Source: Anabaena subtropica FACHB-260 (lineage in GTDB: Bacteria; Cyanobacteriota; Cyanobacteriia; Cyanobacteriales; Nostocaceae). Taken from it: a DNA stretch of 52,591 nt. Below, piece by piece: positions 5,339 through 52,591 of this stretch (position 1 is its first letter; every line of letters begins with the position of its first letter). Below the pieces are notes generated by a model. It was not told the origin of the DNA and did not search any database. It was given only the letters and a program-made list of their open reading frames with translations. Location: assembly GCF_014697105.1 (NCBI RefSeq), contig NZ_JACJRF010000039.1, forward strand, positions 1 through 52,591. Reading direction: 5' to 3'. Both the position numbers and the translations under genes were made by a program.

Positions 5339-6640
5339 ATGCAACAACCAAATCCAGTCAGTATGCGTAATTTTTTTATCGTTTGGCTTGGTCAATTAGT
5401 TTCTACCATTGGTAGCAACATGACCGGCTTTGCGATTGAAATTTGGGCATGGGAAATTACAGGTAAAGCCACAACTCTGACTCTGGTAAGTTTTTTTAGT
5501 TTGCTACCAAGTATTATTATTACCCCGATTAGTGGTGTAATTGTAGACAGATTTAACCGCAAATTTTTAATGATGGTGGGTGATACAGTTGCGGTCATTA
5601 GCACAATTGTAATTTTGTTGTTGCATCTCACCAATAATTTACAAATCTGGCACTTTTATTTAACAGGCGCGATTGTCGGAACTTTCAATCAATTTCAATC
5701 TTTGGCGTACTCAGCATCAGTATCACTGATGATTCCTAAGCAGCACTATACCCGCGCTAGTAGTTTAGAATTTTTATCTGGTTATGGTAGTAATATTATT
5801 GCACCTGCTTTGGCGGGGTATCTTTACACAGTCATTGGTTTTTTAGGAATTTGGTTGATTGATATTTCGACGTTTATGGTAGCAATAGGGAGCTTATTAT
5901 TTGTGAGTATTCCTCAACCAATACCAACCACAAAAAACGAAAACATAGCCAACATTTGGCAAGATTTGGGATTGGGTTGGCGTTATATCACTACTCACAA
6001 AAATTTGCTGGCATTGCTAATAGTTAATGTATTATTTTGGCTACCCCATGATATTGGAGATTCCCTTTACTCGCCCATGATTTTATCGCGCACTAATAAC
6101 AATACTTTAGTGCTAGGTAGCTTGGCTGCTGCGGCTGGTTTTGGTGGTGTGACAGGGGCGATAGTTGTTAGCACTTGGGGCGGTTTTAAACGGAAAATTA
6201 AAGGCGTTTTATTGGGGATGATGGGTGCAGGTATCAGTAAAATTGTCTTTGGTTTGGGTAGAACACCTTGGGTTTGGATTCCGGCGCAATTTTGTTCTTC
6301 TTTTAATTTCCCTTTGAATGGCAGTTCGGATACTTCTATTTGGTTAGCAAAAGTACCTCCTAATGTGCAAGGAAGGGTTTTTGCCGCGCGATCGCTACTT
6401 TTACAGATCGCTTCTGCGGTAGGCTATTTAATAGCAGGCCCATTGGCAGATCAAGTTTTTACACCAGCCTTACAATCAGGTGGTATCTTCGTTAGTATTC
6501 TTGGCAGATCATTCGGGAGTGGTGCAGGTATAGCCCTCCTATATGTAATTTGTGCAGTATGTATGTTACTAGTTGGTTTGGTGGGATTTTCTATCAAAGC
6601 GCTACAAGATTTAGAGAAAATTGTTCCAGATTATGACTAA
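5339..6640 (+). CDS. MFS transporter of the siderophore-cluster (MFS_3/EntS-like) type
   Basis: A 433-residue polytopic membrane protein with about 12 hydrophobic segments. The first loop has the MFS signature GVIVDRFNRKF (the G-x3-D-R-x-x-R pattern). The sequence starts WLGQLVSTIGSNMTGFAIEIWAWEITG, a pattern typical of MFS_3 efflux proteins related to the enterobactin exporter EntS. It follows the FhuF-like gene by 44 bp and probably belongs to the same transcription unit. The most likely role is siderophore export or recycling across the inner membrane; a general drug-efflux role cannot be excluded. Confidence 0.8.
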   Translation: MQQPNPVSMRNFFIVWLGQLVSTIGSNMTGFAIEIWAWEITGKATTLTLVSFFSLLPSIIITPISGVIVDRFNRKFLMMVGDTVAVISTIVILLLHLTNNLQIWHFYLTGAIVGTFNQFQSLAYSASVSLMIPKQHYTRASSLEFLSGYGSNIIAPALAGYLYTVIGFLGIWLIDISTFMVAIGSLLFVSIPQPIPTTKNENIANIWQDLGLGWRYITTHKNLLALLIVNVLFWLPHDIGDSLYSPMILSRTNNNTLVLGSLAAAAGFGGVTGAIVVSTWGGFKRKIKGVLLGMMGAGISKIVFGLGRTPWVWIPAQFCSSFNFPLNGSSDTSIWLAKVPPNVQGRVFAARSLLLQIASAVGYLIAGPLADQVFTPALQSGGIFVSILGRSFGSGAGIALLYVICAVCMLLVGLVGFSIKALQDLEKIVPDYD

Positions 6641-6763
6641 ATGATCTCATAGCATTGTTTAACTTATCTTAGAATAAATAAATATACAAATATCTGAGAA
6701 AATTACTGAACCAATAGTTAAGTACTAGAGTGTACATTCAAACATAGTGCATCTATTACTTTC

Positions 6764-8209
6764 ATGAATTCTCACAAAACAAAATCTTGGAAAGAAGTCC
6801 GCGCAGCTTTTCAAAAAATTTGGGGTTATGAAGATTTCCGTCCACCACAGGGAGAAATTGTCAGCAGTTTAATATCACAGAAAGATGCACTTGTAATCAT
6901 GCCCACAGGGGGCGGAAAATCAATTTGTTTTCAACTACCTGCATTGCTACAAACAGGTGTGACCTTAGTAGTTTCTCCATTGGTAGCATTAATGGAAAAT
7001 CAAGTACAAGAATTAGTCCAATGCCAGCAAAAAGCGGCACTATTACATAGTGAATTATCAACATTTCAACGCCGTAAAACTCTGCAAGCCTTAGAAGAAC
7101 AACAGCTAAGATTATTATATTTATCTCCGGAAACTTTATTAAGTCCACCAGTTTGGGAAAGATTATGTCAGCCACAACTGCAAATCAATGGCTTAATCTT
7201 AGATGAAGCCCATTGTTTAGTGCAGTGGGGTGAAACATTTCGCCCAGCTTACCGCAGATTAGGCGCAATCAGACCGGCATTACTCAAACATAAACCACCA
7301 GGAACCAAAATTAGCATCGCTGCATTTACAGCTACGGCTGACCCCATAGCGCAAAAAACTATACAAACAGTTTTACAATTACAACAGCCAGAAATTTTTC
7401 GCCTTAATCCTTACCGCCCTAATTTACATCCCAGTGTTTGTATTGCTTGGACTCCAAGGGGGAGGAAACAGCAATTAGTTAAATTTATTCAAAATCGACC
7501 CCAACAAGCGGGATTAATTTATGTTCGGACAAGGCGAGATAGTGAGGATTTAGCTGCATGGTTATCACAAATGGGTTACGCCACAGCTATTTATCATGCG
7601 GGGTTAGGTGCAGCAGAACGCCGGGAAGTCGAAGCTAGCTGGTTAGGTGGGAAAATCCCCTTTGTGGTATGTACCTGTGCTTTTGGAATGGGGATTAACA
7701 AGCCAGATGTGCGCTGGGTAGTCCACTATCACGCACCACACCTATTATCTGAATATGTGCAAGAAATTGGTCGTGCGGGACGGGATGGTAAACCAGCCGA
7801 GGCGCTGACATTGGTGAGTGAACCTACGGGATGGTTAGATTCAGAGGATAAACAAAGACAGCAGTTTTTTCAAGCAAAAATGCGATCGCAACAACAAACA
7901 GCCCAACAACTAATCAAAAGGCTACCACAACAAGGTAACGTTAACACAGTCAGCAAAGAATTTCCTGATGGTGCGATCGCTTTAGCTTTACTCCACAGCA
8001 GTGGTCAATTAAACTGGCTAGACCCCTTCCATTACAAAATTGTACACAAGACAAACAACCAGCCATCAACACAATTGCAGGCTACCAAACAAATGACTCA
8101 ATATTTAAATACTAAACAGTGTCGCTGGCAATTTTTATTAAATGCTTTTGGTTTTACTCAAGAAGCTACTAACTGGCATTGTGGACATTGTGATAACTGC
8201 CATTCATAG
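6764..8209 (+). CDS. recQ: RecQ-family ATP-dependent DNA helicase (short form)
   Basis: A 481-residue superfamily 2 helicase that unwinds DNA 3' to 5' in recombination and fork repair. Walker A lies at residues 49-53 (GGGKS within MPTGGGKSICFQLPAL), the DEAH box at 147-150, motif V/VI in VCTCAFGMGINKPDVRW and QEIGRAGRDG. The C-terminus ends in C-x2-C-x2-C (CGHCDNC), matching the last cysteines of the RecQ zinc module. It is shorter than E. coli RecQ (about 609 residues) and has no HRDC domain, and the winged-helix part is reduced; such short RecQ forms are common in cyanobacteria. It is not obviously linked to the upstream iron genes. Confidence 0.9.
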   Translation: MNSHKTKSWKEVRAAFQKIWGYEDFRPPQGEIVSSLISQKDALVIMPTGGGKSICFQLPALLQTGVTLVVSPLVALMENQVQELVQCQQKAALLHSELSTFQRRKTLQALEEQQLRLLYLSPETLLSPPVWERLCQPQLQINGLILDEAHCLVQWGETFRPAYRRLGAIRPALLKHKPPGTKISIAAFTATADPIAQKTIQTVLQLQQPEIFRLNPYRPNLHPSVCIAWTPRGRKQQLVKFIQNRPQQAGLIYVRTRRDSEDLAAWLSQMGYATAIYHAGLGAAERREVEASWLGGKIPFVVCTCAFGMGINKPDVRWVVHYHAPHLLSEYVQEIGRAGRDGKPAEALTLVSEPTGWLDSEDKQRQQFFQAKMRSQQQTAQQLIKRLPQQGNVNTVSKEFPDGAIALALLHSSGQLNWLDPFHYKIVHKTNNQPSTQLQATKQMTQYLNTKQCRWQFLLNAFGFTQEATNWHCGHCDNCHS

Positions 8210-10001: not shown

Positions 10002-10036
10002 CTGGCTGTGTAGCGTGACTAATAATTAAGTTAACA

Positions 10037-10052
10037 GCGATGGGCTACGCCC
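10037..10052. repeat. dispersed 16-mer repeat, copy 1
   Basis: GCGATGGGCTACGCCC. An identical 16-mer stands at 12259-12274. Both lie in short intergenic gaps, as expected of a dispersed cyanobacterial repeat; a HIP1 site follows this copy by about 15 bp. Confidence 0.7.
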
Positions 10053-28784: not shown

Positions 28785-30425
28785 CTAATGATTAATAATT
28801 GTTGTTACTTGTTGTAATTTCGTCTGATAAACCTTGACTAATCTATCAATACCTTTAAAACGATAATCTCCCATTGCTTGAAAATCAGAACGTTGTGAAA
28901 GTAATTGATAAGTGGCTTCACTAATGACGCATTCGCTGGGGGGACAAACTCCTTCCATGCGTGCAGCCAAATTAATCGTCGCTCCTAAGGCTGTGTATTC
29001 TACCCTTTGGGAACTTCCAACATCACCGACAACGGCCTTTCCACTGTTAATGGCAATGCGTAACTGTAGCGGTTCCTGCCAAAAACCATTGGCGTTGAGA
29101 TGTTCCATCCGTGTGAGCATAGCTTTAGCAGCAGTCGTAGCGCGATCAGCGTGGTCTGTTTGGGGTTCGGGAGCGCCAAAAAATGCCATGATACAATCAC
29201 CGATATATTTATCTAAAGTGCCGCCACAAGCAAACACTTCTTGCAACATCTCTTCAAATAATTGATTTAATAATTGAGCGATCGCAGTTGGTGTTAATCT
29301 TTCGGAAATAGCTGTAAAACCAACCAAGTCAGCGAACAAAATACTGATTTCACTTTCTGCTGGAGGTAAACGTCCATCTGGTAAACCACCTACAGCAATT
29401 AACTGTTGCACAACAGCCGGAGAATGATAGCGTTCTAAGCGATGACGAATTACTTCTTCTGTTTTCAGTTTCTCTGCTAATAACCAACGTTGGACGCTAG
29501 AAGCCACCAGATTGGCTAAAGCCGAAAAAAAGCTGAGTTCTTCTTCTCCATCTCGTTCCCAATGGTATGAAGATAAATGAGCATCAGCGTAAAGCACACC
29601 TACAACTTTATTTTCATCCCATAACGGTACAGCCATCGCACTACGAATACCTTTAAGCAAAATGCTGTGTTCACTAGAAAACCGCTCATCTTTGTGAGTG
29701 TCAGCAGTTTGAATGACAATTTTTTCTTCAAATACCTTTTGACAGATACTACGGCTAATCCAACTAGCATCAGCTAGTAGATATTTCTGTTGAGTTTTGC
29801 TTCTAGTACCTGCATTTACTAACTCTAGATGACCATCACCACTGACATCAATTAATAAGGCCAAGCGGTCAATACTACTGAGGTAGCGAAATACAACCTG
29901 TTGCACCTGAGAGAAAATTTCTTCAATGGATGCTGCTGCACACAAATTTTTGGCGATGTCTACTAAGTCTTTCAGTCGGGCAATTGTTTTATTTTTATTA
30001 CCGATATCACTATCACTACTATCAGCCTCTATCCATTGCTGTTGCAGTTCTTTGGCGCTGCGAAAAATTGTTCTTTGTTCGCCAACTTCGTCAATTGGTA
30101 CTTGCTTAGTCAGAGCTAGTGGAGGGGGAGTTTTAAACAGCACCACTAAATTTACATTACCCAACCAAATGACATCACCATGTTGTAACTGTCGGGGATT
30201 GGTGACAGCGCTTTGATTGACTTGTGTCCCATTTTTACTACCCAAATCTTCAACTAACCATTTACCATCTGCTTTTTTTACTAGTTGGGCGTGCTTGCGG
30301 GAAATCCCCCCAAAAGGTAAGTATAAATTACATTCCGGCAACCGCCCAATTGTGAATACATCTTGATTCACGGGAACAGTTGTTTCCGTATCTCCTTGTT
30401 GCAAGCGTAAAGTCAGTTCAGTCAT
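28785..30425 (-). CDS. cyaD: adenylate cyclase with FHA and GAF domains (CyaD-like)
   Basis: A 546-residue class III cyclase making cAMP. An FHA domain at about residues 25-95 (FTIGRLPECNLYL, GGISRKHAQLV, DLGSKNGTQVN) would bind phosphothreonine peptides, implying input from a Ser/Thr kinase. A GAF domain follows at about 165-320 (AMAVPLWDENKVVGVLYAD). The catalytic domain at about 355-535 has both metal Asp positions (ILFADLVGFT and LDKYIGDCIMAFFG), Lys in DKYIGD and Thr in EYTALGATINLAARM. The Lys plus Thr pairing favours adenylate over guanylate cyclase. The FHA-GAF-cyclase order matches Anabaena CyaD as I recall it. The gene is convergent with dcd. Confidence 0.88.
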   Translation of the reverse strand: MTELTLRLQQGDTETTVPVNQDVFTIGRLPECNLYLPFGGISRKHAQLVKKADGKWLVEDLGSKNGTQVNQSAVTNPRQLQHGDVIWLGNVNLVVLFKTPPPLALTKQVPIDEVGEQRTIFRSAKELQQQWIEADSSDSDIGNKNKTIARLKDLVDIAKNLCAAASIEEIFSQVQQVVFRYLSSIDRLALLIDVSGDGHLELVNAGTRSKTQQKYLLADASWISRSICQKVFEEKIVIQTADTHKDERFSSEHSILLKGIRSAMAVPLWDENKVVGVLYADAHLSSYHWERDGEEELSFFSALANLVASSVQRWLLAEKLKTEEVIRHRLERYHSPAVVQQLIAVGGLPDGRLPPAESEISILFADLVGFTAISERLTPTAIAQLLNQLFEEMLQEVFACGGTLDKYIGDCIMAFFGAPEPQTDHADRATTAAKAMLTRMEHLNANGFWQEPLQLRIAINSGKAVVGDVGSSQRVEYTALGATINLAARMEGVCPPSECVISEATYQLLSQRSDFQAMGDYRFKGIDRLVKVYQTKLQQVTTIINH

Positions 30426-42287: not shown

Positions 42288-43034
42288 ATGGTTTGGCAGC
42301 GTCCCGACGGAAGAAAACCCTATGAACTCCGTCCTATTAATTTTCACACCGGATTTACTCGCTTTGCCCCTGGTTCAGTTCTAACTATATGTGGTGAGAC
42401 TAAAGTACTTTGTACAGTGAGCGTCGCGGAAAGTGTACCCAAGTTTCTCGCAGGTAGTGGTAAAGGTTGGTTGACGGCAGAGTATCGGATGCTACCATCA
42501 GCCACACAACAACGGCACGAACGAGAATTATTGAAATTATCTGGACGGACGCAAGAAATTCAACGTTTGATTGGGCGTAGCTTACGAGCTGCAATAGATT
42601 TTGAGGTCTTAGGAGAACGAACTTTAACCGTAGATGCAGATGTGTTGCAAGCCGACGCAGGTACAAGAACGGCAGCAATTACAGGCGGGTTTGTGGCTTT
42701 AGCTGGTGCTATTTCTCAATTATTGCAGCGAGGAGTATTAGAGCGATCTCCCCTATGCGGACAAGTAGCAGCTGTTTCTGTCGGTTTATTAGAAGAAGAA
42801 GCATTTTTAGATTTGAACTACATAGAAGATGTAGCAGCAACTGTAGATTTCAATGTAGTGATGAATCAACACTTGGGAATTATCGAAGTTCAGGGAACAG
42901 CAGAAGAAGGCAGTTTTAGCCGTACCCAGTTGAATCGGCTATTAGATTGCGCCGAAAACGGCATTCAGCAATTGTTAATTGCCCAAAAGGAGGCAATTAC
43001 TGACTGGGACAAGTTATTCTTGAGCAGTAATTAA
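42288..43034 (+). CDS. rph: ribonuclease PH
   Basis: A 248-residue phosphorolytic exoribonuclease that trims tRNA 3' ends. It starts [19 protein letters not shown], with [39 protein letters not shown] and the catalytic segment [23 protein letters not shown]. The C-terminal part ([27 protein letters not shown]) is standard. It lies 41 bp after mfd and may be co-transcribed with it. Its stop codon is 62 bp before the left end of the transposon, and the gene is intact. Confidence 0.96.
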
Positions 43035-43078: not shown

Positions 43079-43096
43079 AGAATTACTGCCGAATAT

Positions 43097-43334
43097 TGTA
43101 CATTAACTAATTATTTGTCAATTTAACAAATTATTGCCACAACAGATTTAAATATTGAAAAGCCTGTCATATCAACTATTATGGCAGGTTTTTTGTCATT
43201 ATGTCTCATTCAACCGCCACTAAAATTATTTAACAAACTAAATGACAAAAAACAGATTTTTCACAAATTAGCTGTCACTTTGCCTAAGCAAGTGACACTA
43301 ATACTTGTAGAAAAAATTAACAAATTAACTGTCA
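43097..43334 (+). promoter_or_regulatory. transposon left end with four TnsB-site-like repeats
   Basis: Repeats following the pattern TTAACAAATTAnnTGTCA: 43103-43120, 43123-43139 (degenerate, TTGCCA), 43260-43277 (starts TTCAC) and 43317-43334 (the best copy). The first two adjoin the terminal TGTACA. Their layout, a pair at the tip and more inside, is that of Tn7-like left ends. Confidence 0.65.
43273..43297. promoter_or_regulatory. inverted repeat upstream of tnsB, possible operator
   Basis: TGTCACTT at 43273-43280 and AAGTGACA at 43290-43297 form a perfect dyad with a 9-nt centre, about 80 bp before tnsB. Its first half overlaps a TnsB-site-like repeat. It could bind TnsB in autoregulation, or a MerR-type repressor of the CvkR kind known for V-K CASTs; this is speculative. 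Confidence 0.4.
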
Positions 43335-43377
43335 CATTTAGCAGTATAATACAACTATGTTTTAATAAAACACTAAT

Positions 43378-45093
43378 ATGCAGGATTACAACTCATTTAC
43401 CGCACCTGCAACACAAGAAGCTGCGTCAGACACAAGCAAAAATATCGCTGAAACAAATGTCATCTTGTCTGAGCTTTCTGATGAAGCAAATTTAAAAATG
43501 CAGGTAATTCAAAGTCTGCTAGAAGCAGGTGATCGCACTACCTATGCCCAAAAGCTTAAGGAAGGCGCAGAAAAACTAGGTAAGTCAGTAAGAACATTAC
43601 GGCGACTGATAAATAAATGGGAAAAGGAGGGGTTAGTTGGCCTGGAGCAAAACGAACGTGCTGACAAAGGCAAGCACCGAGTTGATGAAGATTGGCGGAA
43701 ATTTATTTTAGAGACGTATAAGGAAGGCAATAAAGGAAGTAAACGCATGACTCGCCAGCAAGTAGCCGTCAGGGTGAAAGCTAGAGCAGATGAGCTAGGT
43801 GTCAAATCGCCTTCTCACATGACTGTGTACCGTATTCTTGAACCTGTGATTCAAAAACAGGAGAAGGCAAAAAGTATTCGCTCTCCAGGTTGGCGAGGTT
43901 CTCGTTTATCCGTTAAAACTCGTGACGGGAAAGATTTAACAGTAGAGTACAGTAATCAAGTTTGGCAATGTGACCATACCCGTGTGGATGTGCTGTTAGT
44001 AGATCAACATGGGGAAATTTTAGGTCGTCCTTGGTTAACCACAGTCATAGATAGTTATTCTCGCTGCATTGTAGGTATTAATCTTGGCTATGATGCTCCA
44101 AGTTCTCAGGTAGTTGCTTTGGCGTTACGTCATGCAATTTTGCCAAAACAATATGGAGAAGAATATAAACTTTATGAAGAGTGGGGAACCTACGGTAAAC
44201 CACAACATTTTTACACTGATGGTGGTAAAGATTTTCGCTCAAACCATTTGCAACAGATAGGTGTGCAGTTGGGGTTTGTTTGTCATTTACGGGATCGCCC
44301 CAGTGAAGGGGGTATTGTCGAGCGTCCTTTCAAGACATTTAACACCGAATTATTCTCAACTTTGCGAGGATATACAGGGTCAAATGTACAAGAACGCCCA
44401 GAAGACGCAGAGAAGGACGCTAACTTGACTTTACGGCAACTAGAGCAAAAGTTGGTAGCTTACATTGTCAATACCTATAACCAAAGAATTGATGCTCGTA
44501 TGGGTGAGCAAACTAGATTTCAGCGTTGGGAATCTGGCTTGATAGTAGCACCTGATGTCATCTCGGAAAGAGATTTGGATATCTGTTTAATGAAGCAAAC
44601 TCGAAGAGTGATTCAAAGAGGAGGTTACTTACAATTTGAAAATCTGATGTACAGGGGCGAATATTTAGCAGGTTATGCAGGAGAAAGCGTTGTACTGCGT
44701 TATGACCCCAAAGACATTACTACTTTGTTGGTTTACGGCTATAAGGGTAATAAAGAAGAATTTCTAGCTCGTGCTTATGCTCAAGATTTGGAGACTGAGG
44801 AATTGTCTCTGGATGACGCAAAAGCTATGAGTCGCCGGATTCGGCAAGCAGGTAAGGCTATTAGCAATCGTTCTATTTTGGCAGAGGTGCGCGATCGCGA
44901 AACCTTCGTGAACCAAAAGAAAACCAAAAAGGAACGCCAAAAGGCAGAACAGACAGTAGTTCAAAAGGCTAAAAAACCTATGCCTGTTGAACCAGAGGAA
45001 GAAGTTGAAGTGGCATCTGTTGACCATGAACCAGAATACCAGATGCCAGAAGTATTTGATTACGAACAAATGCGTGAAGATTACGGGTGGTAG
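43378..45093 (+). CDS. tnsB: transposase TnsB (DDE integrase)
   Basis: A 571-residue DDE transposase with retroviral-integrase fold. The catalytic triad is Asp199 (WQCDHT), Asp281 (FYTDGGKDF) and Glu315 (GGIVERPF). N-terminal helix-turn-helix regions (AQKLKEGAEKLGKSVRTLRRLINKW; MTRQQVAVRVKARADELGVK) recognise the element ends. A C-terminal Mu-type beta-barrel and a basic, then acidic tail (KKTKKERQKAEQTV; EPEEEVEVASVDHEPEYQMP) follow; the extreme C-terminus of TnsB contacts TnsC in V-K systems. tnsC starts after a 3-bp gap. There is no TnsA, as in V-K and Tn5053-like elements, implying co-integrate (replicative) transposition. Confidence 0.93.
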   Translation: MQDYNSFTAPATQEAASDTSKNIAETNVILSELSDEANLKMQVIQSLLEAGDRTTYAQKLKEGAEKLGKSVRTLRRLINKWEKEGLVGLEQNERADKGKHRVDEDWRKFILETYKEGNKGSKRMTRQQVAVRVKARADELGVKSPSHMTVYRILEPVIQKQEKAKSIRSPGWRGSRLSVKTRDGKDLTVEYSNQVWQCDHTRVDVLLVDQHGEILGRPWLTTVIDSYSRCIVGINLGYDAPSSQVVALALRHAILPKQYGEEYKLYEEWGTYGKPQHFYTDGGKDFRSNHLQQIGVQLGFVCHLRDRPSEGGIVERPFKTFNTELFSTLRGYTGSNVQERPEDAEKDANLTLRQLEQKLVAYIVNTYNQRIDARMGEQTRFQRWESGLIVAPDVISERDLDICLMKQTRRVIQRGGYLQFENLMYRGEYLAGYAGESVVLRYDPKDITTLLVYGYKGNKEEFLARAYAQDLETEELSLDDAKAMSRRIRQAGKAISNRSILAEVRDRETFVNQKKTKKERQKAEQTVVQKAKKPMPVEPEEEVEVASVDHEPEYQMPEVFDYEQMREDYGW

Positions 45094-45096
45094 AAA

Positions 45097-45951
45097 ATGA
45101 CTTCAAAACAAGCTCAAGCAGTTGCACAACAATTAGGTGATATTCCGGTCAATGATGATAAATTACAAGCAGAAATTCAACGATTAAACCGCAAAAACTT
45201 TGTTTCTTTAAAACAAGTACAAGTTCTTCATGATTGGTTAGAGGGCAAGCGACAATCCAAGCAGTCTGGTCGAGTTGTGGGAGAGTCTCGCACTGGCAAA
45301 ACAATGGGTTGCAACGCATATAGATTAAGGCATAAACCCAAGCAAAAACCAGGGCAACCCCCTATTGTACCTGTTGCTTACATCCACGTTAATCAAGAGT
45401 GTAGTGCAAAAGAATTATTTGGGTTAATTATTGAACATTTAAAATATCAAATTCCTAAAGGCACTGTAGCTGAGATTAGAGATCGGACATTTCGGGTACT
45501 TAAGGGTTGTGGTGTTGAAATGCTCATCATAGATGAGGCTGACCGTTTAAAACCAAAGACATTTGCTGAAGTAAGAGATATTTTTGACAAGCTGGAAATT
45601 TCAGTAATCTTGGTAGGGACTGACCGTTTGGATACAGTAATCAGGCGGGATGAACAAGTTTTCAACCGCTTTCGAGCCTGTTATCGTTTTGGAATCATAT
45701 CAGATGAAGACTTTCCTCAAACAGTAGAAATTTGGGAAAAGACAATTCTACAGTTGCCTGTGGCTTCCAATTTAAAAAGTGACACAATGCTTACAACTTT
45801 AAAAGAGGCAACAGGTCGTTATATAGGACTATTAGATATGATTCTGAGAGAGACAGCAATCAAGGCTTTAAAAAAGGGATTACACAAGATTGACCTAGCA
45901 ACGCTGAAAGAAGTTGTAAATGAATACACTGTAGAACCGAAGCGTAAATGA
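45097..45951 (+). CDS. tnsC: AAA+ ATPase TnsC
   Basis: A 284-residue AAA+ regulator that forms filaments on target DNA and recruits TnsB. Walker A is GESRTGKT at residues 62-69, Walker B LIIDEAD at 143-149, and sensor-1 is ILVGTDRLD. The size is near that of ShCAST TnsC (about 276) and far below Tn7 TnsC (about 555). It overlaps tniQ by 4 bp (ATGA). Confidence 0.93.
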   Translation: MTSKQAQAVAQQLGDIPVNDDKLQAEIQRLNRKNFVSLKQVQVLHDWLEGKRQSKQSGRVVGESRTGKTMGCNAYRLRHKPKQKPGQPPIVPVAYIHVNQECSAKELFGLIIEHLKYQIPKGTVAEIRDRTFRVLKGCGVEMLIIDEADRLKPKTFAEVRDIFDKLEISVILVGTDRLDTVIRRDEQVFNRFRACYRFGIISDEDFPQTVEIWEKTILQLPVASNLKSDTMLTTLKEATGRYIGLLDMILRETAIKALKKGLHKIDLATLKEVVNEYTVEPKRK

Positions 45952-46454
45952 TGGAAACTTTAAATCTTCAACCTTGGGTGTTTCGAGTGGAAGCAATAGA
46001 AGGAGAAAGTATAAGCCACTTTTTAGGACGCTTTCGACGGGCTAATGATTTAACGCCTACTGGATTAGGTAAAGCAATAGGAGTTGGGGGTGCGATCGCT
46101 CGATGGGAAAAATTTCGGTTTAATCCCCTACCGTCTCGCCAGCAATTAGAGGCATTGGCTAAGGTTGTGGAGGTTGATGCCGATAGGTTAGCCCAAATGT
46201 TACCACCTGCTGGGGTGGGGATGAAAATTGACCCAATCCGGTTATGTGCTGCTTGTTATGCCGAGTCGCCATGTCACAAAATTGAATGGCAGTTTAAGGT
46301 AACGCAAGGATGTCAGCATCATCATTTAAGTTTGCTGTCAGAATGTCCCAATTGTGGAGCAAGGTTTAAAGTTCCTGCATTGTGGGTTGATGGCTGGTGT
46401 CAAAGGTGTTTTACGACTTTTGCGGACATGGCAGAACGTCAGAAGGAAATTTAG
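45948..46454 (+). CDS. tniQ: short TniQ target-selection protein
   Basis: A 168-residue TniQ. The N-terminal part has the TniQ opening (FRVEAIEGESISHFLGRFRRANDL) and a helix-turn-helix-like region (TPTGLGKAIGVGGAIARWEKF). Two zinc-finger groups follow: CAACYAESPC, then CPNC and CQRC near the C-terminus. This length is that of V-K CAST TniQ; TniQ/TnsD of other Tn7-like elements is usually 300 residues or more. In V-K systems it caps the TnsC filament at the Cas12k complex. ATG 45951 is an equally possible start. Confidence 0.9.
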   Translation: MMETLNLQPWVFRVEAIEGESISHFLGRFRRANDLTPTGLGKAIGVGGAIARWEKFRFNPLPSRQQLEALAKVVEVDADRLAQMLPPAGVGMKIDPIRLCAACYAESPCHKIEWQFKVTQGCQHHHLSLLSECPNCGARFKVPALWVDGWCQRCFTTFADMAERQKEI

Positions 46455-46588
46455 GATACAAAAACCGATCGCCTATACCCTGTGGGTTGATGGCTTGTTC
46501 CACACCTATTGTTGATATATTTAAGTATAGAATAATACTTTTTTTGGCATACGGGTGTTGAATAAAATTGAATGATTCTAATAATAAT

Positions 46589-47038
46589 TTACTTGATTGT
46601 ATCTTTAATTAACTCTGTGATTTTTTCAATAATATTTTCAGCTAATTTCAAAGAAAGCTTAACTTCTTTGTCTAAAGTATATATAGTGTCCTCATAATCT
46701 GCTTTATTTCTAGATTGCCGTAGCCTACATAAATCATTTCCTATTTCTATCATTTTCCTATTTTTTGATTTATTGCGTATGAATTCATCGGACACATATT
46801 GATGTTCATTGATATCGCCAGTTCTGGCTTTTGATAACCTTGGATCATGTAAAACATCTCGTAAGTAATTTCTAGCTGTACAAAAGGCAGCATAATAGGC
46901 TCTACTTATAGATGAACGTAGTTTTGCTTCGGGGATTGTTGGTTTAGAATCTGTTTCTGAATCAGTAGAAAAGGTAGAAGTTATATAAGCTATTTCTTTT
47001 GCTAGCTCAAGATATTCAGCCCAATTAAATTTCATCAA
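46589..47038 (-). CDS. HEPN-domain protein (UPF0332-like)
   Basis: A 149-residue, all-helical protein. It has the UPF0332/HEPN pattern: EAKLRSSISRAYYAAFCTARNYL in the first half and LRQSRNKADYEDTIYTLDKE in the second. The usual RNase motif R-x4-H is here R-N-K-A-D-Y, so the His is replaced by Tyr, as in the ADY-type HEPN branch; catalytic activity is therefore uncertain. It is the last gene of a three-gene minus-strand operon and overlaps the gene before it by 14 bp. HEPN proteins are frequent in defence and toxin systems. Base composition is AT-rich, with no HIP1 site. Confidence 0.75.
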   Translation of the reverse strand: MMKFNWAEYLELAKEIAYITSTFSTDSETDSKPTIPEAKLRSSISRAYYAAFCTARNYLRDVLHDPRLSKARTGDINEHQYVSDEFIRNKSKNRKMIEIGNDLCRLRQSRNKADYEDTIYTLDKEVKLSLKLAENIIEKITELIKDTIK

Positions 47039-47678
47039 AACTAATATTAATTTCTAAATCATTACCAAATTTGAAAGAGATATCTAACCACCAAAGATTA
47101 TCTAAAGCTTTTAGTTTATCAAATGCTTCATCTACATCAAGATTAGTATGAATCTCAATTATTAATTTTTTCCAACCAATAATTTCTGGATCATAAACAA
47201 CCCGTAGCACATTTTTTTCATTATTAAAAATATTTTTGATTTTTTCATGAGCTTCTATCAATATAGAGATTAAATGTTTTTTCTCATTCAAATACTGCAA
47301 TATCTCTACTGTATGACTCAAAATATATAAACTTCTAATCTCATTGAGAAAATTATTTACTAAGGCAACAGAACCAGTATTAATTACTTGATTAGATATT
47401 TCTGCTGAAAAAGAAGAAACTACTAAGAAGTTAGTTTGTATTCTTTCTATGAAAGGATTGGTACGATTTTTTACTTTACTATTTTCTTTACATAACCAAT
47501 AAGAAGCCCACTTTGCTATTTCTATATTTTCATTTTCTAGTTCCTCATATGATTGAGATGGATTAAATTTTAATTTATTTGTTGCTGATGTACTAGGCGA
47601 TGCAAGGCTTGGAAACTTTGTCTTTAATTCTGCTACTTCTTGTGTACTATTATCATTTAAAGAGCCAATACTAGGCAT
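47025..47678 (-). CDS. unrecognised 217-residue protein of the HEPN operon
   Basis: I do not recognise this protein. The first ~55 residues are Ser/Thr/Asn-rich and probably disordered (SLASPSTSATNKLKFNPSQS). A helical middle (SYWLCKENSKVKNR; NNFLNEIRSLYILSHTVEILQYL) is followed by an alternating-strand C-terminus (KKLIIEIHTNLDVDEAFDKL; WWLDISFKFGNDLEINISFDE). No membrane segment or catalytic motif stands out. Its start shares one base with the stop of the TIGR04255-like gene (TAATG), and its end overlaps the HEPN gene by 14 bp, so the three products are very probably made together. Confidence 0.7.
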   Translation of the reverse strand: MPSIGSLNDNSTQEVAELKTKFPSLASPSTSATNKLKFNPSQSYEELENENIEIAKWASYWLCKENSKVKNRTNPFIERIQTNFLVVSSFSAEISNQVINTGSVALVNNFLNEIRSLYILSHTVEILQYLNEKKHLISILIEAHEKIKNIFNNEKNVLRVVYDPEIIGWKKLIIEIHTNLDVDEAFDKLKALDNLWWLDISFKFGNDLEINISFDEI

Positions 47679-48460
47679 TATTCAAACCTCCTTAATAGAT
47701 CACCATCTACTAATGTAAAAAACCAATTATGGCAAACTGAGTGAGCATTTTCTAGCCATTTGTCTAGATTTGAAGGAATTTCTGGGATATCAGGGTCAGT
47801 CGATTGAATTGTTGTTTCCCATATTAAAGCATCACTGGCTAAATTTCTTTGATTATCAAACTTTTGCCCCTTGACAATTCTGAAATTTACAATACCTTTT
47901 GGATTTTCAGCCGGAAATGCAAATTGCAAGTCTAATTGTATTGGATTATTTGTTACTAATGTTTTTTCAAAAAGTAAAGGACTGAAATTTAGTTCTATTT
48001 TCATTTTATTTTTTAAAAATTCATAAAATTCATTTTCTTTTAAATCTAAATCTATAGCATCAATATATTTTAAGATGAGATAACGTGGGCGGAATTTATC
48101 TTTACTGGGATGCACTATATACAAATTATCTACTACATCAATAATTCGTTTTTTAAAATCTTGCCAAATATAATTTTCTGTGTCATTAACTGTTAAAATT
48201 CCGTTACCCAATTGTACTAGAGGCCAACCTTTCTCGCTCTTAAATCTATGTTTGACAATCCCTTCTGCCATTTGTTCAGGAATAGAAGCAAATGGCAATT
48301 GTTCATATATGGGATAATTTTCATTTATTCTGTCAAATAATCTACCGAGTATTAATTGAGTATTAGGATCACCACCTATAAATGGTGGTTGTTCTGTATA
48401 CCATCTTATTTCAAATATTGCCTCGACAAGAGGTTTGTTTGTTAAGTTCTCTAAAGCCAT
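47678..48460 (-). CDS. TIGR04255-like sporadically distributed protein
   Basis: A 260-residue protein. The N-terminus ALENLTNKPLVEAIFEIRWYTEQPP carries the PLVEAIFEIRW motif I associate with the TIGR04255 family, a sporadically distributed family of unknown function. Later pieces such as YLILKYIDAIDLDLKENEFYEFL and a C-terminal WLENAHSVCHNWFFTLVD are also consistent. The patchy distribution and operon partners suggest a mobile or defence-related role, but no function is established that I know of. It is the first gene of the minus-strand trio; 180 bp of AT-rich DNA upstream must hold the promoter. Confidence 0.75.
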   Translation of the reverse strand: MALENLTNKPLVEAIFEIRWYTEQPPFIGGDPNTQLILGRLFDRINENYPIYEQLPFASIPEQMAEGIVKHRFKSEKGWPLVQLGNGILTVNDTENYIWQDFKKRIIDVVDNLYIVHPSKDKFRPRYLILKYIDAIDLDLKENEFYEFLKNKMKIELNFSPLLFEKTLVTNNPIQLDLQFAFPAENPKGIVNFRIVKGQKFDNQRNLASDALIWETTIQSTDPDIPEIPSNLDKWLENAHSVCHNWFFTLVDGDLLRRFE

Positions 48461-48640: not shown

Positions 48641-51607
48641 CTATGCTGCACCTTGGTCGTAATCATTCTCGAACAGGGTATTGGCTAACCATGTTTTAAA
48701 CTCATTATCATCCGTAAATTTACGGTATGCTTCTGTATGGTTGAAGATGAACTCCTGAAACTTATCGACTAGCTTTTTCTCGAAGGTGATTCTGGCGTTT
48801 TGTCGATCTGAGTATTTCTTGGCGTTCTGATATTCTTCATCTTTACTGACTTCAGCAGGTAATTCTTCAAACAGGAAGCGACGCACTTTATCTTTTTCTG
48901 TCCACTGAATATTGCCAAAGCGATCATTAAAATCTTGAATAATATTACTGAGTGTGTCTAATTTCGCCTCATATTGCCTACCAGGAGGATCTGGGGGTGC
49001 GGGTGCTATTTCTCCGCCACCTTCAAGCTGTATGGCTAGGGTTGTTTGTCTTTCTATGCGGTAGCTGTCGATGTCAACGCTTTCTAAAACGCCTTTGGAT
49101 AAGTCGGTTTCGTTAAGGTTGGGAAGTTTGGCTACTAGGAATTTGAGAAAGGTTTTCAAGCTTTCCCAGTAAGGATTACGGAAAGGATGAATTTGGACTA
49201 GGAATTGATAGTTACGGACAAAAGATTTCGCTTTTTTCTTGAAGTCTATTTGCTGTTCTTCGTCTAATTCATTGATAAAGTTTTGTTTGCTTTCATCGAG
49301 AATGGGGTCTAATTGGGCACGTTCTGCACCATTGATGAAGCGGTTCATCAATTCGTTGACTTGTTCTTCAGAATAAACTTGGAAACTGTCAAGTGCATCT
49401 TGTAAGTCGTTGAGGCGCTCTATATCTGTTTCTTCACTCAGAATTGTTGTTTGATAAAATGGGTCAAAGGCTTCTTTAATTGCATCGGCTGAGTTGACAA
49501 AATCTAGGATGAATGTATCTTTTTTATCTGGTTTGTAAGCCCGGTTGAGGCGAGATAGGGTTTGAACGGCTTTGATATCGGCTAGGGGTTTATCTACATA
49601 CATGGTATGTAATAGGGGTTGGTCAAATCCTGTTTGATATTTATCAGCTACTATCAGGAATCTATACTCACTTTTTTTGAACTCTTTGGGAATGTCGTTC
49701 CCTGGAAAGCCGTTCATTGAGGACTCATCCTCTTTTTTTCCGTCAACTTCTTTACTGCCTGTAAATGCAACTATAGTTTTGTAAGGTGCGTTGATTTCCT
49801 GTAGGTAGGCATCGAAGGCTAGTTTATAGCGAATGGCACTGTTAATACCATTGGTGACGACCATTGCTTTTGCTTGTCCATTAATTTTGCGTTGACCAAT
49901 TACTTCTTCTATGAAATGGTCAATCATAATTTCTGTTTTCTGGCGGATAGCGTGGGGGTGTCCCTCTATGTACTGCTTGAGCTTTTTCTTTGCTCGTTTG
50001 GTATCAAATTGGGGATCGTCTTCAATCTTTTTCTCAAGCTTACAGTAACTTCTATAGGTGGTGTAATTCTCCAGTACATCTAAGATAAATTCTTCCTCTA
50101 TTGCCTGTTTCATGGAATAGTTATGGAAGGGATAATATTTGTTATCTGCTGGATTTTGAATGCCGAAAGTTTCTAATGTCTTATTTTTGGGTGTGGCTGT
50201 GAAGGCGAAGTAACTGGCGTTGGGAGAAAGTTTTTGTTCTTCAATGATGCGGAGAATTTTATCTTCGGTGGTTTCTTCTTCCTCACCTGTTTCTTTATTC
50301 AGGGCAGCACTCATTTTGGCTGCACTGCTACCACTTTGGCTAGAGTGGGCTTCGTCAATGACAATGGCAAATTTTTGATTGCTTAATGATTGAATTTCTT
50401 TAACAATATAGGCAAATTTAAAAACTGTGGTGATAATAATTTTTTTGCCTTCTTCTAGTGCCTGTTTTAGTTGCTTACTACCTTCGGTGATGGCTTCAAC
50501 TACGCCTTTGACTTGGGCGAACTGTTTGATATTATCGCGGATTTGTTTATCTAATATTTTGCGGTCTGTGACGACGATAATTGAATCAAATATGGGGTTG
50601 GTGTCGCTGGTGTCGGTGAGTTCTACGAGTTGGTGACTTAGCCAGCTAATGGAGTTACTTTTACCTGAACCTGCGGAATGTTGAACTAGATAACGCTGTC
50701 CTACACCGTTGGTTTTGGCATTGGCTAGGAGTTTTCGCACTAGGTCGAGTTGGTGGTAACGGGGAAAGATTAGTTTGCGTTTCTTCTGTTTTTCTTCGTC
50801 TTTCTCTTCTACCAGTTGGGCATATTTTTCAATGATGTTGCTGAGGCTAGTTTTGGTGAGAATTTCTTTCCACAGGTAATCGGTTTTTAGTCCGTTGGGG
50901 TTGATGGGGTTTCCTGCACTGTCGGGGAAAAGTAAGTGAGGTTCAGATTTTTGACCTTTGTTGAAGGGAAGAAAAACTGTTTGTTCTCCCTTCAGTTCGG
51001 TGGTCATGTAGACTAACTCATCATCGACGGCGAAATGAACTAAGCAACGGGCAAAGTTAAACAGGGGTTCTTTGGGGTCACGGTCAGTTTTGTACTGCTT
51101 TATCGCATCCTGGACATTTTGCTTAGTGAGGTTGTTTTTTAGTTCAAAGGTGATGATGGGTAAGCCATTGATGAAAATCCCCATATCCAGGGATAGCCGC
51201 TTTTTATCTTTGCTGAACTGGAGTTGACGAGTAACGGAGAAGATATTTTGGTTGTAGTTTTGGATGGCTTGGGGGTTAAGTTGGGATGCGGGTAGTTTGT
51301 AGTAGAGTGTCAGGCTGACTTCTTGGGCTTTGATACCCTTGCGGAGAACATCAACAATACCTCTGCTTTTGATTTGGTCTGAGATGCGTTGAAATAGTTT
51401 TTCTTCAAACCGTTTACCGTAGCTGGTTTCTAGTTTGGTGACTTGGGTGGGTTGGGTTTGGCGGAGGAATTGCAGCAGTTGAGTTTTATCTATGCAGTAG
51501 TTGCGGTCATAGTCCCCAGGTTGACTTTTGATGTAACCTGCTTCTGTGAGTAGGCTTTTTTCTATGAGGGCTTCTAAGCCTTTTTCTGAGGTGTCGGTGG
51601 TGTTCAT
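48641..51607 (-). CDS. hsdR: type I restriction enzyme, R (endonuclease/translocase) subunit
   Basis: A 988-residue HsdR. The N-terminal nuclease domain shows the PD-ExK pattern (LDMGIFINGLPIITFELKN, with ELK near residue 153, followed by QYKTDRDP). The SF2 motor has Walker A HSAGSGKSN at about residue 310 and DEAH at about 420 (IDEAHSSQSG), then FTATPKNKTL and ADKYQTGFDQPLL. Length is near the usual ~1000. It cleaves unmodified DNA after translocation when bound to HsdM2S. It starts 2 bp after hsdS on the same strand. hsdM is not in the window and would be upstream of hsdS, beyond 52591. Confidence 0.95.
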   Translation of the reverse strand: MNTTDTSEKGLEALIEKSLLTEAGYIKSQPGDYDRNYCIDKTQLLQFLRQTQPTQVTKLETSYGKRFEEKLFQRISDQIKSRGIVDVLRKGIKAQEVSLTLYYKLPASQLNPQAIQNYNQNIFSVTRQLQFSKDKKRLSLDMGIFINGLPIITFELKNNLTKQNVQDAIKQYKTDRDPKEPLFNFARCLVHFAVDDELVYMTTELKGEQTVFLPFNKGQKSEPHLLFPDSAGNPINPNGLKTDYLWKEILTKTSLSNIIEKYAQLVEEKDEEKQKKRKLIFPRYHQLDLVRKLLANAKTNGVGQRYLVQHSAGSGKSNSISWLSHQLVELTDTSDTNPIFDSIIVVTDRKILDKQIRDNIKQFAQVKGVVEAITEGSKQLKQALEEGKKIIITTVFKFAYIVKEIQSLSNQKFAIVIDEAHSSQSGSSAAKMSAALNKETGEEEETTEDKILRIIEEQKLSPNASYFAFTATPKNKTLETFGIQNPADNKYYPFHNYSMKQAIEEEFILDVLENYTTYRSYCKLEKKIEDDPQFDTKRAKKKLKQYIEGHPHAIRQKTEIMIDHFIEEVIGQRKINGQAKAMVVTNGINSAIRYKLAFDAYLQEINAPYKTIVAFTGSKEVDGKKEDESSMNGFPGNDIPKEFKKSEYRFLIVADKYQTGFDQPLLHTMYVDKPLADIKAVQTLSRLNRAYKPDKKDTFILDFVNSADAIKEAFDPFYQTTILSEETDIERLNDLQDALDSFQVYSEEQVNELMNRFINGAERAQLDPILDESKQNFINELDEEQQIDFKKKAKSFVRNYQFLVQIHPFRNPYWESLKTFLKFLVAKLPNLNETDLSKGVLESVDIDSYRIERQTTLAIQLEGGGEIAPAPPDPPGRQYEAKLDTLSNIIQDFNDRFGNIQWTEKDKVRRFLFEELPAEVSKDEEYQNAKKYSDRQNARITFEKKLVDKFQEFIFNHTEAYRKFTDDNEFKTWLANTLFENDYDQGAA

Positions 51608-51609
51608 GG

Positions 51610-52512
51610 CTAAATTGCTGCGGTTGTAAGGGTGGTTTCAACTGCTGATGTTTCACGTACATCTATTTTTCCCGTTACAGCGTCGGAAATTAGCGTGGTG
51701 CGGTATTCTTGGATTAGTTCGATTTCTTTTTCAGCTTTGGCGATCGCTTGGTCAATTTGTTTTGATTCTCTATCCAAGCAAGCAACAATCTCTTCCTGTT
51801 CAGATAAAGGAGGAGTGGGAATAGTGTGAGTTGCTAAAACTCTCAAATAAATACTAGGTTGAGCTATTTGTGAGATATTATTATCAATCCATGCTTTGAA
51901 TATTGCACTATCTATGTAATTTAATAAATATTCGGGAAGTATTTGTTCTGTTGGTCTTACATATCCAACATGACGGGTACAAGATAGCGGCAAATGTTCT
52001 TCTTTTAGAATTGCAGCAAAACCAATAGAGCCAACTAAAGTTATTAAAACATCACCGACAATAGGTGCTATTTTAGGATGTCCAGCTTGATAATCCTCAA
52101 AACTAATGTATGTAGCTTTATTTATATCAATAGTTCTATTTCTTACGTGCTGAGTAGAAATAAATTTAACACCTTCATCAACTTTAGGTGGAGTTTGATG
52201 TAATCCATCTTTGATTACAGAACAAAGCTTTTTCATCGGAAGAATTTCCCAATGCGCTGGAATTTCCCCTAACCACTGAATACCAGAAGGTTTAATAGGC
52301 ACATGGGGGTTTAGTCCCTTAGTAACTGCACGGTTAGCGATCGCAGTTTTCTGCTCTTTGAGTAATTCGATAAGCCTTTGCTTGTTGCTGATGAAGTGGT
52401 CTATCTGTTCTAATTTGCGATCAAGGAAGCGGGCGATCGCTTTTTGTTCGGACAGAGGAGGGGTTAGTAAAATACATTCTCTAAGACAATACCTTTGCCA
52501 AATTACGAGGGT
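51610..52512 (-). pseudogene. hsdS: type I restriction specificity subunit, N-terminal part missing
   Basis: The frame codes the central and C-terminal parts of HsdS. Read from 52512 it has PPLSEQKAIARFLDRKLEQI and a helical spacer (conserved region 1), then the second target-recognition domain beginning PSGIQWLGEIPAHWEI, ending in a second TPPLSEQEEIVACLDRES and a final helix. The GTG at 52302 is not a likely start, because conserved sequence continues 70 codons upstream in frame to a TGA at 52513-52515. Intact HsdS has about 400-450 residues with a first recognition domain before this point; here that region is replaced by unrelated DNA containing a hairpin. It is probably interrupted by a mobile element, unless a frameshift explains it. 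Confidence 0.72.
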
Positions 52513-52591
52513 TCAACGCCCGTAGAAACGGGATGAATACGTCCTAAAGAAGTAAGCTTGGCAAAAATCTGGTTTAATAAAATAGGCTCAG
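52503..52591 (-). other. hairpin-bearing sequence interrupting hsdS, possible mobile-element end
   Basis: CCCGT (52519-52523) and ACGGG (52528-52532) form a 5-bp hairpin with an AGAA loop, placed just after TTAC (52503-52506). On the minus strand an open frame runs in from the window edge and stops at 52503-52505 with residues ending LGRIHPVSTGVEPS. A terminal hairpin next to a short TTAC-like target and a frame ending there is the layout of IS200/IS605-type elements with tnpB. This is a guess; the rest lies outside the window. Confidence 0.35.

Follow-up and report, generated by a model that had tools for sequence, protein, structure and literature searches.

The window considered here is the whole of contig C38 (NZ_JACJRF010000039.1; 52,591 nucleotides), one of the 104 contigs of the 5.81 Mb genome of Anabaena subtropica FACHB-260 (99.18% complete). 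From position 43,097 it carries one end of a transposon together with the genes tnsB, tnsC and tniQ. This is very probably half of a split type V-K CRISPR-associated transposon (CAST; CRISPR, clustered regularly interspaced short palindromic repeats), which continues on contig C30 of this genome, the assembly being broken at an insertion sequence within the cargo. Elements of this type are already known; less common is the attachment site, at mutS. A sequence-only reading of the window had called it the left half of such an element. However, in the layout given in the excerpted text of PMC9938897, the Cas12k/CRISPR side is the left end (LE) and the tnsB side the right end (RE), and thus, the window holds the right half.

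The RE terminus, TGTACA (43097..43102, plus strand), stands where that reading had placed it. Outside it are the 5 bp AATAT (43092..43096, plus strand), unmatched by the GCTAA outside the other end, and the host gene rph, for RNase PH (42288..43034, plus strand; NCBIfam TIGR01966, 364 bits, above the cut-off). Homology to an element of Nostoc sp. CMAA1605 begins at 43093, practically at the terminus. The 23-mer starting at 43097 is found exactly at 4 places in the genome, and the first 23 bp are identical between the C38 and C30 termini. The repeated TnsB-site-like sequences previously noticed are real: the consensus TTNACNAATTANNTGTCA has three exact matches across the window (43103..43120, 43260..43277 and 43317..43334, all plus strand), every one of them within 43103-43334, where 100 shuffles give an expectation of 0.00 for the window, and a further site at 43230..43247 (plus strand) has 2 mismatches. 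When 3 mismatches are allowed, the count for the window (16 against 11.6 expected) is not significant, and in the stretch L090 there are 2 matches against 4.3 expected, of which the match at the C30 terminus is exact.

Inward from the RE, the three transposition genes follow on the plus strand, with exactly the sizes given earlier. TnsB (43378..45093) is a DDE transposase of 571 residues, which phmmer aligns with ShTnsB (7svw) at 873 bits; the next best solved TnsB, of type I-F3, scores 98.8 bits. The alignment with ShTnsB runs from residue 20 to the end and includes the stretches with the D, D, and E residues that we take to be catalytic. TnsC (45097..45951), an AAA+ regulator of 284 residues, matches ShTnsC (8rdu) at 373.6 bits as well as the Pfam families TniB and AAA_22, and contains GESRTGKT and LIIDEAD, presumably its motifs. 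TniQ (45948..46454) has 168 residues and matches ShTniQ (7n6i) at 251 bits. The catalytic motifs look intact, both on reading and in the alignment with ShTnsB, and with scores of 251, 374, and 873 bits for TniQ, TnsC, and TnsB against the ShCAST proteins the earlier type V-K call is upheld. Both the order tnsB-tnsC-tniQ inward from the RE (PMC9938897) and the short TniQ (PMC10293859) are described for V-K CASTs in the excerpted texts of these sources. In a TnsB tree of 27 rows, the window protein groups with that of the Nostoc sp. CMAA1605 element (94/97), among the TnsBs of V-K-type tniQ loci. Since this tree has a single, very distant outgroup and only 5 of its 24 inner branches are starred, with no starred set of up to half the rows including the window, the bit scores carry more weight.

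The cargo behind tniQ lies on the minus strand. It comprises a HEPN-domain protein of 149 residues (46589..47038; Pfam PF05168, 24.8 bits, cut-off 22), a 217-residue protein with no family above a cut-off (47025..47678), a 260-residue TIGR04255 family protein (47678..48460; NCBIfam, 111 bits, cut-off 30), the type I restriction subunit gene hsdR (48641..51607; 988 residues, Pfam HSDR_N), and an interrupted hsdS (51610..52486), identified by its reading frame, Pfam Methylase_S and PADLOC Specificity_I, whose N-terminal part is off the contig. The hsdR gene falls in a 3118-bp stretch shared with the Nostoc sp. CMAA1605 element at 95.8% identity. The last ~105 bp (52487..52591) are one end of a multicopy insertion sequence, at which the assembly is broken: this end is near-identical at 13 places in the genome, its own included, and 11 of 12 copies examined sit at a contig end. 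Contig C38 stops at 52591, with nothing beyond.

The Cas12k half and its anchor spacer

Contig C30 begins in a similar way. Its first ~107 bp are an element end found at 14 places in the genome, and all 12 copies examined are at a contig end. The start of C30 and the end of C38 have similar terminal repeats when compared by eye, suggesting that they are the two ends of one insertion sequence. The element genes that follow are hsdM, a DUF262 (GmrSD-type) gene, a CvkR-type gene, and an intact cas12k. Cas12k (C30:4675-6564; 638 residues) matches NF038191 at 982.7 bits, where the cut-off is 150, and ShCas12k at 942 bits over 635 residues. In its RuvC region, the stretch ilvgvslglekp is identical to that of ShCas12k; where this stretch has S, an active enzyme carries D. 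Mutated RuvC sites are a described property of V-K Cas12k (excerpted text of PMC10293859). The CvkR-type MerR gene (C30 4144-4599, minus strand; Alr3614 7xn2, 6e-37) is divergent from cas12k, an arrangement that is common, though not universal, in V-K CASTs.

Near cas12k, three 37-nt CRISPR repeats score above the threshold of Rfam RF01329. A putative trans-activating CRISPR RNA (tracrRNA) region between cas12k and the array is placed there from the published layout; it lies within a 2.9-kb stretch that is 82% identical to genome G015, and the Rfam result, obtained with no tracrRNA model, does not include it. After the repeats come a truncated repeat, a 17-nt anchor spacer ATGGGGCAGATTGAGAA, and then the LE terminus, TGTACA (C30:7530-7535), with GCTAA outside it. 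Two array spacers were compared with plasmids and phages and have no match at E 0.1; of the three spacer stretches, these are the two other than the one that precedes the truncated repeat. Cas12k, a MerR-type CvkR gene, CRISPR repeats with a repeat-spacer unit set apart from them, and a TGTACA terminus in inverted orientation had all been forecast from the window; only the AATAT expected beyond the far end is replaced by GCTAA. What had been named as counting against a V-K element, namely a far end without cas12k or CRISPR repeats, or a position outside the V-K clade, did not turn up: the far end has both, and TnsB groups within the clade. The element is apparently complete, the hsdS cargo excepted, and may be active.

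The anchor spacer matches mutS (NF003810, 1077 bits) at 17 of 17 positions (C30:7577-7593, minus strand), with GTC as the protospacer-adjacent motif (PAM) at 58 nt from the LE. The guide covers the codons of the MGQIEK stretch in MutS, and the terminus lies one base beyond the mutS stop codon. For V-K anchors, the excerpted text of PMC9938897 gives a truncated repeat (R*) with a 17-nt spacer and a GTN PAM 46-82 nt from the LE. The same arrangement is found here, with the protospacer outside the LE and the PAM and its distance within these limits.

Among 388 genomes of the order, a truncated-repeat end followed by this spacer (up to 3 mismatches) was found in three, each from a different genus: this one, G015, and G018. 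In the other two, the insertion is 4 bases beyond the mutS stop, with 61 nt from PAM to LE; the G018 spacer matches its own mutS at 17 of 17 positions, and the G015 spacer has 2 mismatches. The host motif itself is widespread: a degenerate 27-mer for QVMGQIEKH is present in 148 of the 388 genomes, and the exact 17-mer with CAG in this genome and in G014, G309, and G315 (listing read by eye). Targets of this kind are not the rule. Thirty-four anchors were obtained from a non-random sample of 37 distinct elements (30 loci from the search, six chosen next rows, and a fragment from this genome, C52), and 28 of the protospacers are wholly inside a tRNA gene (ARAGORN), 3 are in mutS, and 3 are elsewhere. 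The target in L177 resembles what we take to be the start of a comM/yifB-like frame. Three elements gave no anchor (L169, L171, and L173; the contig of L173 is short). The search did not require TGTACA, since a version that did gave none in many loci. As a control on 40 stretches, three of which are second stretches of elements already counted, complement-only pairing gave 0, reverse-only 0, and direct pairs 2, compared with 34 real anchors. Among the papers listed for Cas12k or V-K systems together with mutS or mismatch repair, none deals by its title with such an attachment site, and among those listed for CASTs and attachment sites in cyanobacteria, mutS occurs only in an unrelated one; the supplement of PMC9938897 (118 systems) was not covered, so such a site may already be in print.

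From studied V-K systems, it would be expected that a nuclease-dead Cas12k is directed to the mutS 3' end by the anchor CRISPR RNA together with the tracrRNA, that TniQ and TnsC assemble at this target, and that TnsB joins both ends at a distance of ~58 nt from the PAM, immediately after the stop codon, so that mutS stays whole. CvkR would repress the system, and the array spacers would serve transposition to other targets. Movement is proposed to be replicative because no TnsA gene is found in the parts seen; a Pfam scan of 8 proteins from the window and 4 of the element on C30 gave no TnsA, the gap between C38 and C30 being outside its view. The place just past the mutS stop would be a harmless one, as is that used by Tn7 at glmS, which is reached via a protein. 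Sites such as mutS show how guide-directed transposons may find safe homes, and the three elements at mutS, with 0, 0, and 2 mismatches, are a natural experiment on the tolerance for differences between spacer and target.

Flanks and the rph-mutS inversion

The matching 5-bp duplication expected of an undisturbed Tn7-type insertion is absent from the element (AATAT and GCTAA). This genome also contains a second V-K element, which is broken and of which C46 and C52 may both be pieces: C46 (L092) carries a tnsB of 596 residues and a tnsC cut off near the contig end, and C52 (L091) has a C-terminal fragment of Cas12k, a tracrRNA-like region, an LE, and an anchor spacer to tRNA-Cys. Pairing the four exact termini by their flanks failed (AATAT on C38, CAAGT on C46, GCTAA on C30, TTTAA on C52). 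Likewise, when gene order in 12 relatives (14 loci with ~1.5-kb flanks) was used to look for the C46-C52 pairing, the sole C46 match was a 98-bp repeat in L214, which is not the C46 flank. Natural V-K elements with both ends visible often lack matching 5-bp duplications. Among the five compared (both ends picked by eye), the flanks also differ in L008 and L071, match partly or in low-complexity sequence in L016 and L059, and form an 8-bp duplication, TTAGAAAT, in G015.

A simple insertion between an adjacent rph and mutS was considered and rejected: in none of 29 loci, representing 29 of the 35 relatives that have an rph match, does mutS lie ~1.5 kb or less from rph. Because the two genes are not neighbours in relatives, an inversion was considered. 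The far end of a ~22-kb block lies 0.06-0.84 kb after rph in four of five rph regions of relatives (G002, G005, G006, and G008, not G001), and mutS is 2.7-7.5 kb from the block starting at C30:29356 in four of five mutS regions (G002, G003, G006, and G008, not G005). Here, the end of the ~22-kb block directly joins C30:29356. Therefore, the partner junction should be rph|mutS, the very site where both transposon ends lie. Judged from this gene order, a ~22-kb segment has been inverted, and the element marks one of the two junctions.

How the inversion arose concerns only the history of the locus. The element itself may have made it, either by replicative intramolecular transposition or by recombination between inverted copies; alternatively, the inversion is older and unrelated. 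The first account would explain the unmatched flanks, and it agrees with the exchange of joins relative to the relatives and with the position of the element exactly at rph|mutS. In addition, V-K elements lack TnsA and form cointegrates (excerpted text of PMC11406308). However, the other junction (C30 ~29324-29356) has no TGTACA in the surrounding 3 kb and no match longer than 19 bp to either transposon half, other V-K elements also lack matching flanks, and no transposon is visible at a further rearrangement, the one on the opposite side of rph (26.69/42.26 kb). Since the second junction is free of remnants and this other rearrangement free of a transposon, an inversion made by the element is a minority possibility, to be entertained but not expected. 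As to this further rearrangement, the upstream neighbour of rph in 5 of 5 relatives is the sequence at window ~26.69 kb, reversed, and not mfd (window 26689/42257). A 15.6-kb segment thus seems to be inverted here, between window 26.69 and 42.26 kb; only one junction is seen, and the orientation fits.

A broader proposal, which we regard as rather doubtful in its entirety, is that in one V-K lineage the mutS 3' end has become the attachment site, one within a protein gene, with a guide that tracks the local mutS, and that here the 22-kb rph-mutS inversion resulted from replicative transposition of the element itself. If so, the mutS 3' end would be the RNA-guided counterpart of glmS for Tn7, and the elements to examine would be those found at junctions of rearrangements.

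Joining the two contigs

Several findings connect C38 with C30. The Nostoc sp. CMAA1605 element (L017, NZ_PJIZ01000030.1), found via its TniQ, has RE-tnsB-tnsC-tniQ-hsdR-hsdS-DUF262 on one contig. It matches C38 at 43093-46477, 48641-51758, and 52243-52449 and then C30 at 109-1689, passing from the one (to 52449) into the other (from 109) over ~0.5 kb. Restriction genes are also grouped on two plasmids that rank high in the matches to both proteins compared: hsdM-DUF262-hsdS, four other genes, and then hsdR on the Meiothermus plasmid pMtWR-220, and hsdM-hsdS-hsdR on a Niallia plasmid. The short V-K TniQ is found only on C38 (1 of 3 TniQ matches in the genome), and the sole full cas12k of the genome is on C30. 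Finally, gene order in relatives independently predicts the rph|mutS junction. Because L017 runs through the C38 and C30 genes contiguously, and given these four lines of evidence together, the two halves very likely belong to one element.

Some observations weigh against this reading. No contig spans C38 and C30, and neither of them contains ~0.5 kb of hsdS that the comparison with L017 leads one to expect; the flanks are unlike those of one undisturbed insertion; and the second, broken V-K element could have exchanged parts with this one. The Cas12k family also has matches below the cut-off in 2 of 14 control genomes, while the C30 match is far above it. RNA-guided replicative transposition is, for this element, a prediction from sequence.

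It might be argued, then, that C38 and C30 are halves of two V-K elements, that of the window having lost, or never had, a Cas12k of its own and being mobilised in trans. The unmatched 5-mers, the pieces of a second element on C46 and C52, and the 13 and 14 copies of the insertion sequence ends, which would permit other joins, are in keeping with this. Yet L017, a contiguous orthologue, joins exactly the C38 and C30 genes, the inversion inside C30 calls for rph beside mutS, the other Cas12k matches in the genome are fragments only, and the other V-K tnsB seen (on C46; tnsB was not searched for genome-wide) has its tnsC cut at the contig end. Two separate elements are thus very improbable. A Tn7-like or Tn5053-like transposon that moves without CRISPR guidance, with which the element has the TniB, TniQ, and rve families in common, can practically be dismissed given the Cas12k, the CRISPR repeats, the matching anchor spacer, and a TnsB score of 873 bits to ShTnsB against at most 98.8 bits to the other solved TnsB chains listed.

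Traces of further elements are present in the genome. C24 (L147:2074-7299) carries a separate Tn7-like element with an 898-residue TnsA-TnsB fusion, a TnsC-like AAA protein, and a 495-residue TniQ. On C33, a 458-residue TniQ lies beside a TGTACAGTGACTAATTATTTGTT terminus near the contig end (L146:5342-5364, 5494-6870), with no transposase among the 4 scanned of 8 listed open reading frames. An LE-like remnant ending in TGTACA lies beside an apparent tRNA gene, judged by eye, on C25 (L094 ~10015-10040).

Comparison with known systems

ShCAST (Tn7747, Scytonema hofmannii) is the reference for the proteins discussed above: its TnsB, TnsC, TniQ, and Cas12k align nearly full length with those of the element described here. 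Its ends are also TGTACA; its cargo and array spacers presumably differ. The anchor target is another difference, being mutS here and usually a tRNA gene.

The orthologous element L017 shares the gene arrangement from the RE to the DUF262 gene, with 86-96% nucleotide identity over the matched stretches. It differs in the flank outside its RE, and its left end is beyond the stretch compared. It has no match to the HEPN, 217-residue, and TIGR04255 cargo of the window and instead has an extra tniQ fragment. Such C-terminal tniQ fragments, in the cargo behind a full tniQ and with 52-85% amino acid identity to the window TniQ, occur at L017:12000-12352, L222 (G015:C1:7197083-7197418), and L224 (G018:C1:6472896-6473159); there are none in the window or L090. 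They may be remnants of nested elements, or may be kept for a reason.

The G015 and G018 elements share the class of anchor spacer and the insertion just past the mutS stop; however, their restriction genes are only 22-31% alike in protein to those found here, and the V-K termini of G018 seem to begin TGTCG rather than TGTACA, despite the same mutS anchor. AnCAST of Anabaena sp. PCC 7120, as described in the excerpted text of PMC9938897, has the same layout, with a MerR-type gene divergent upstream of cas12k and an R* with a 17-nt anchor spacer and a GTN PAM 46-82 nt from the LE. According to that source, the protospacer is usually in a tRNA gene, whereas here it is in a protein gene. With the split element of A. 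subtropica, these systems gain a further V-K member, apparently intact, whose attachment site is a conserved one in a protein gene.

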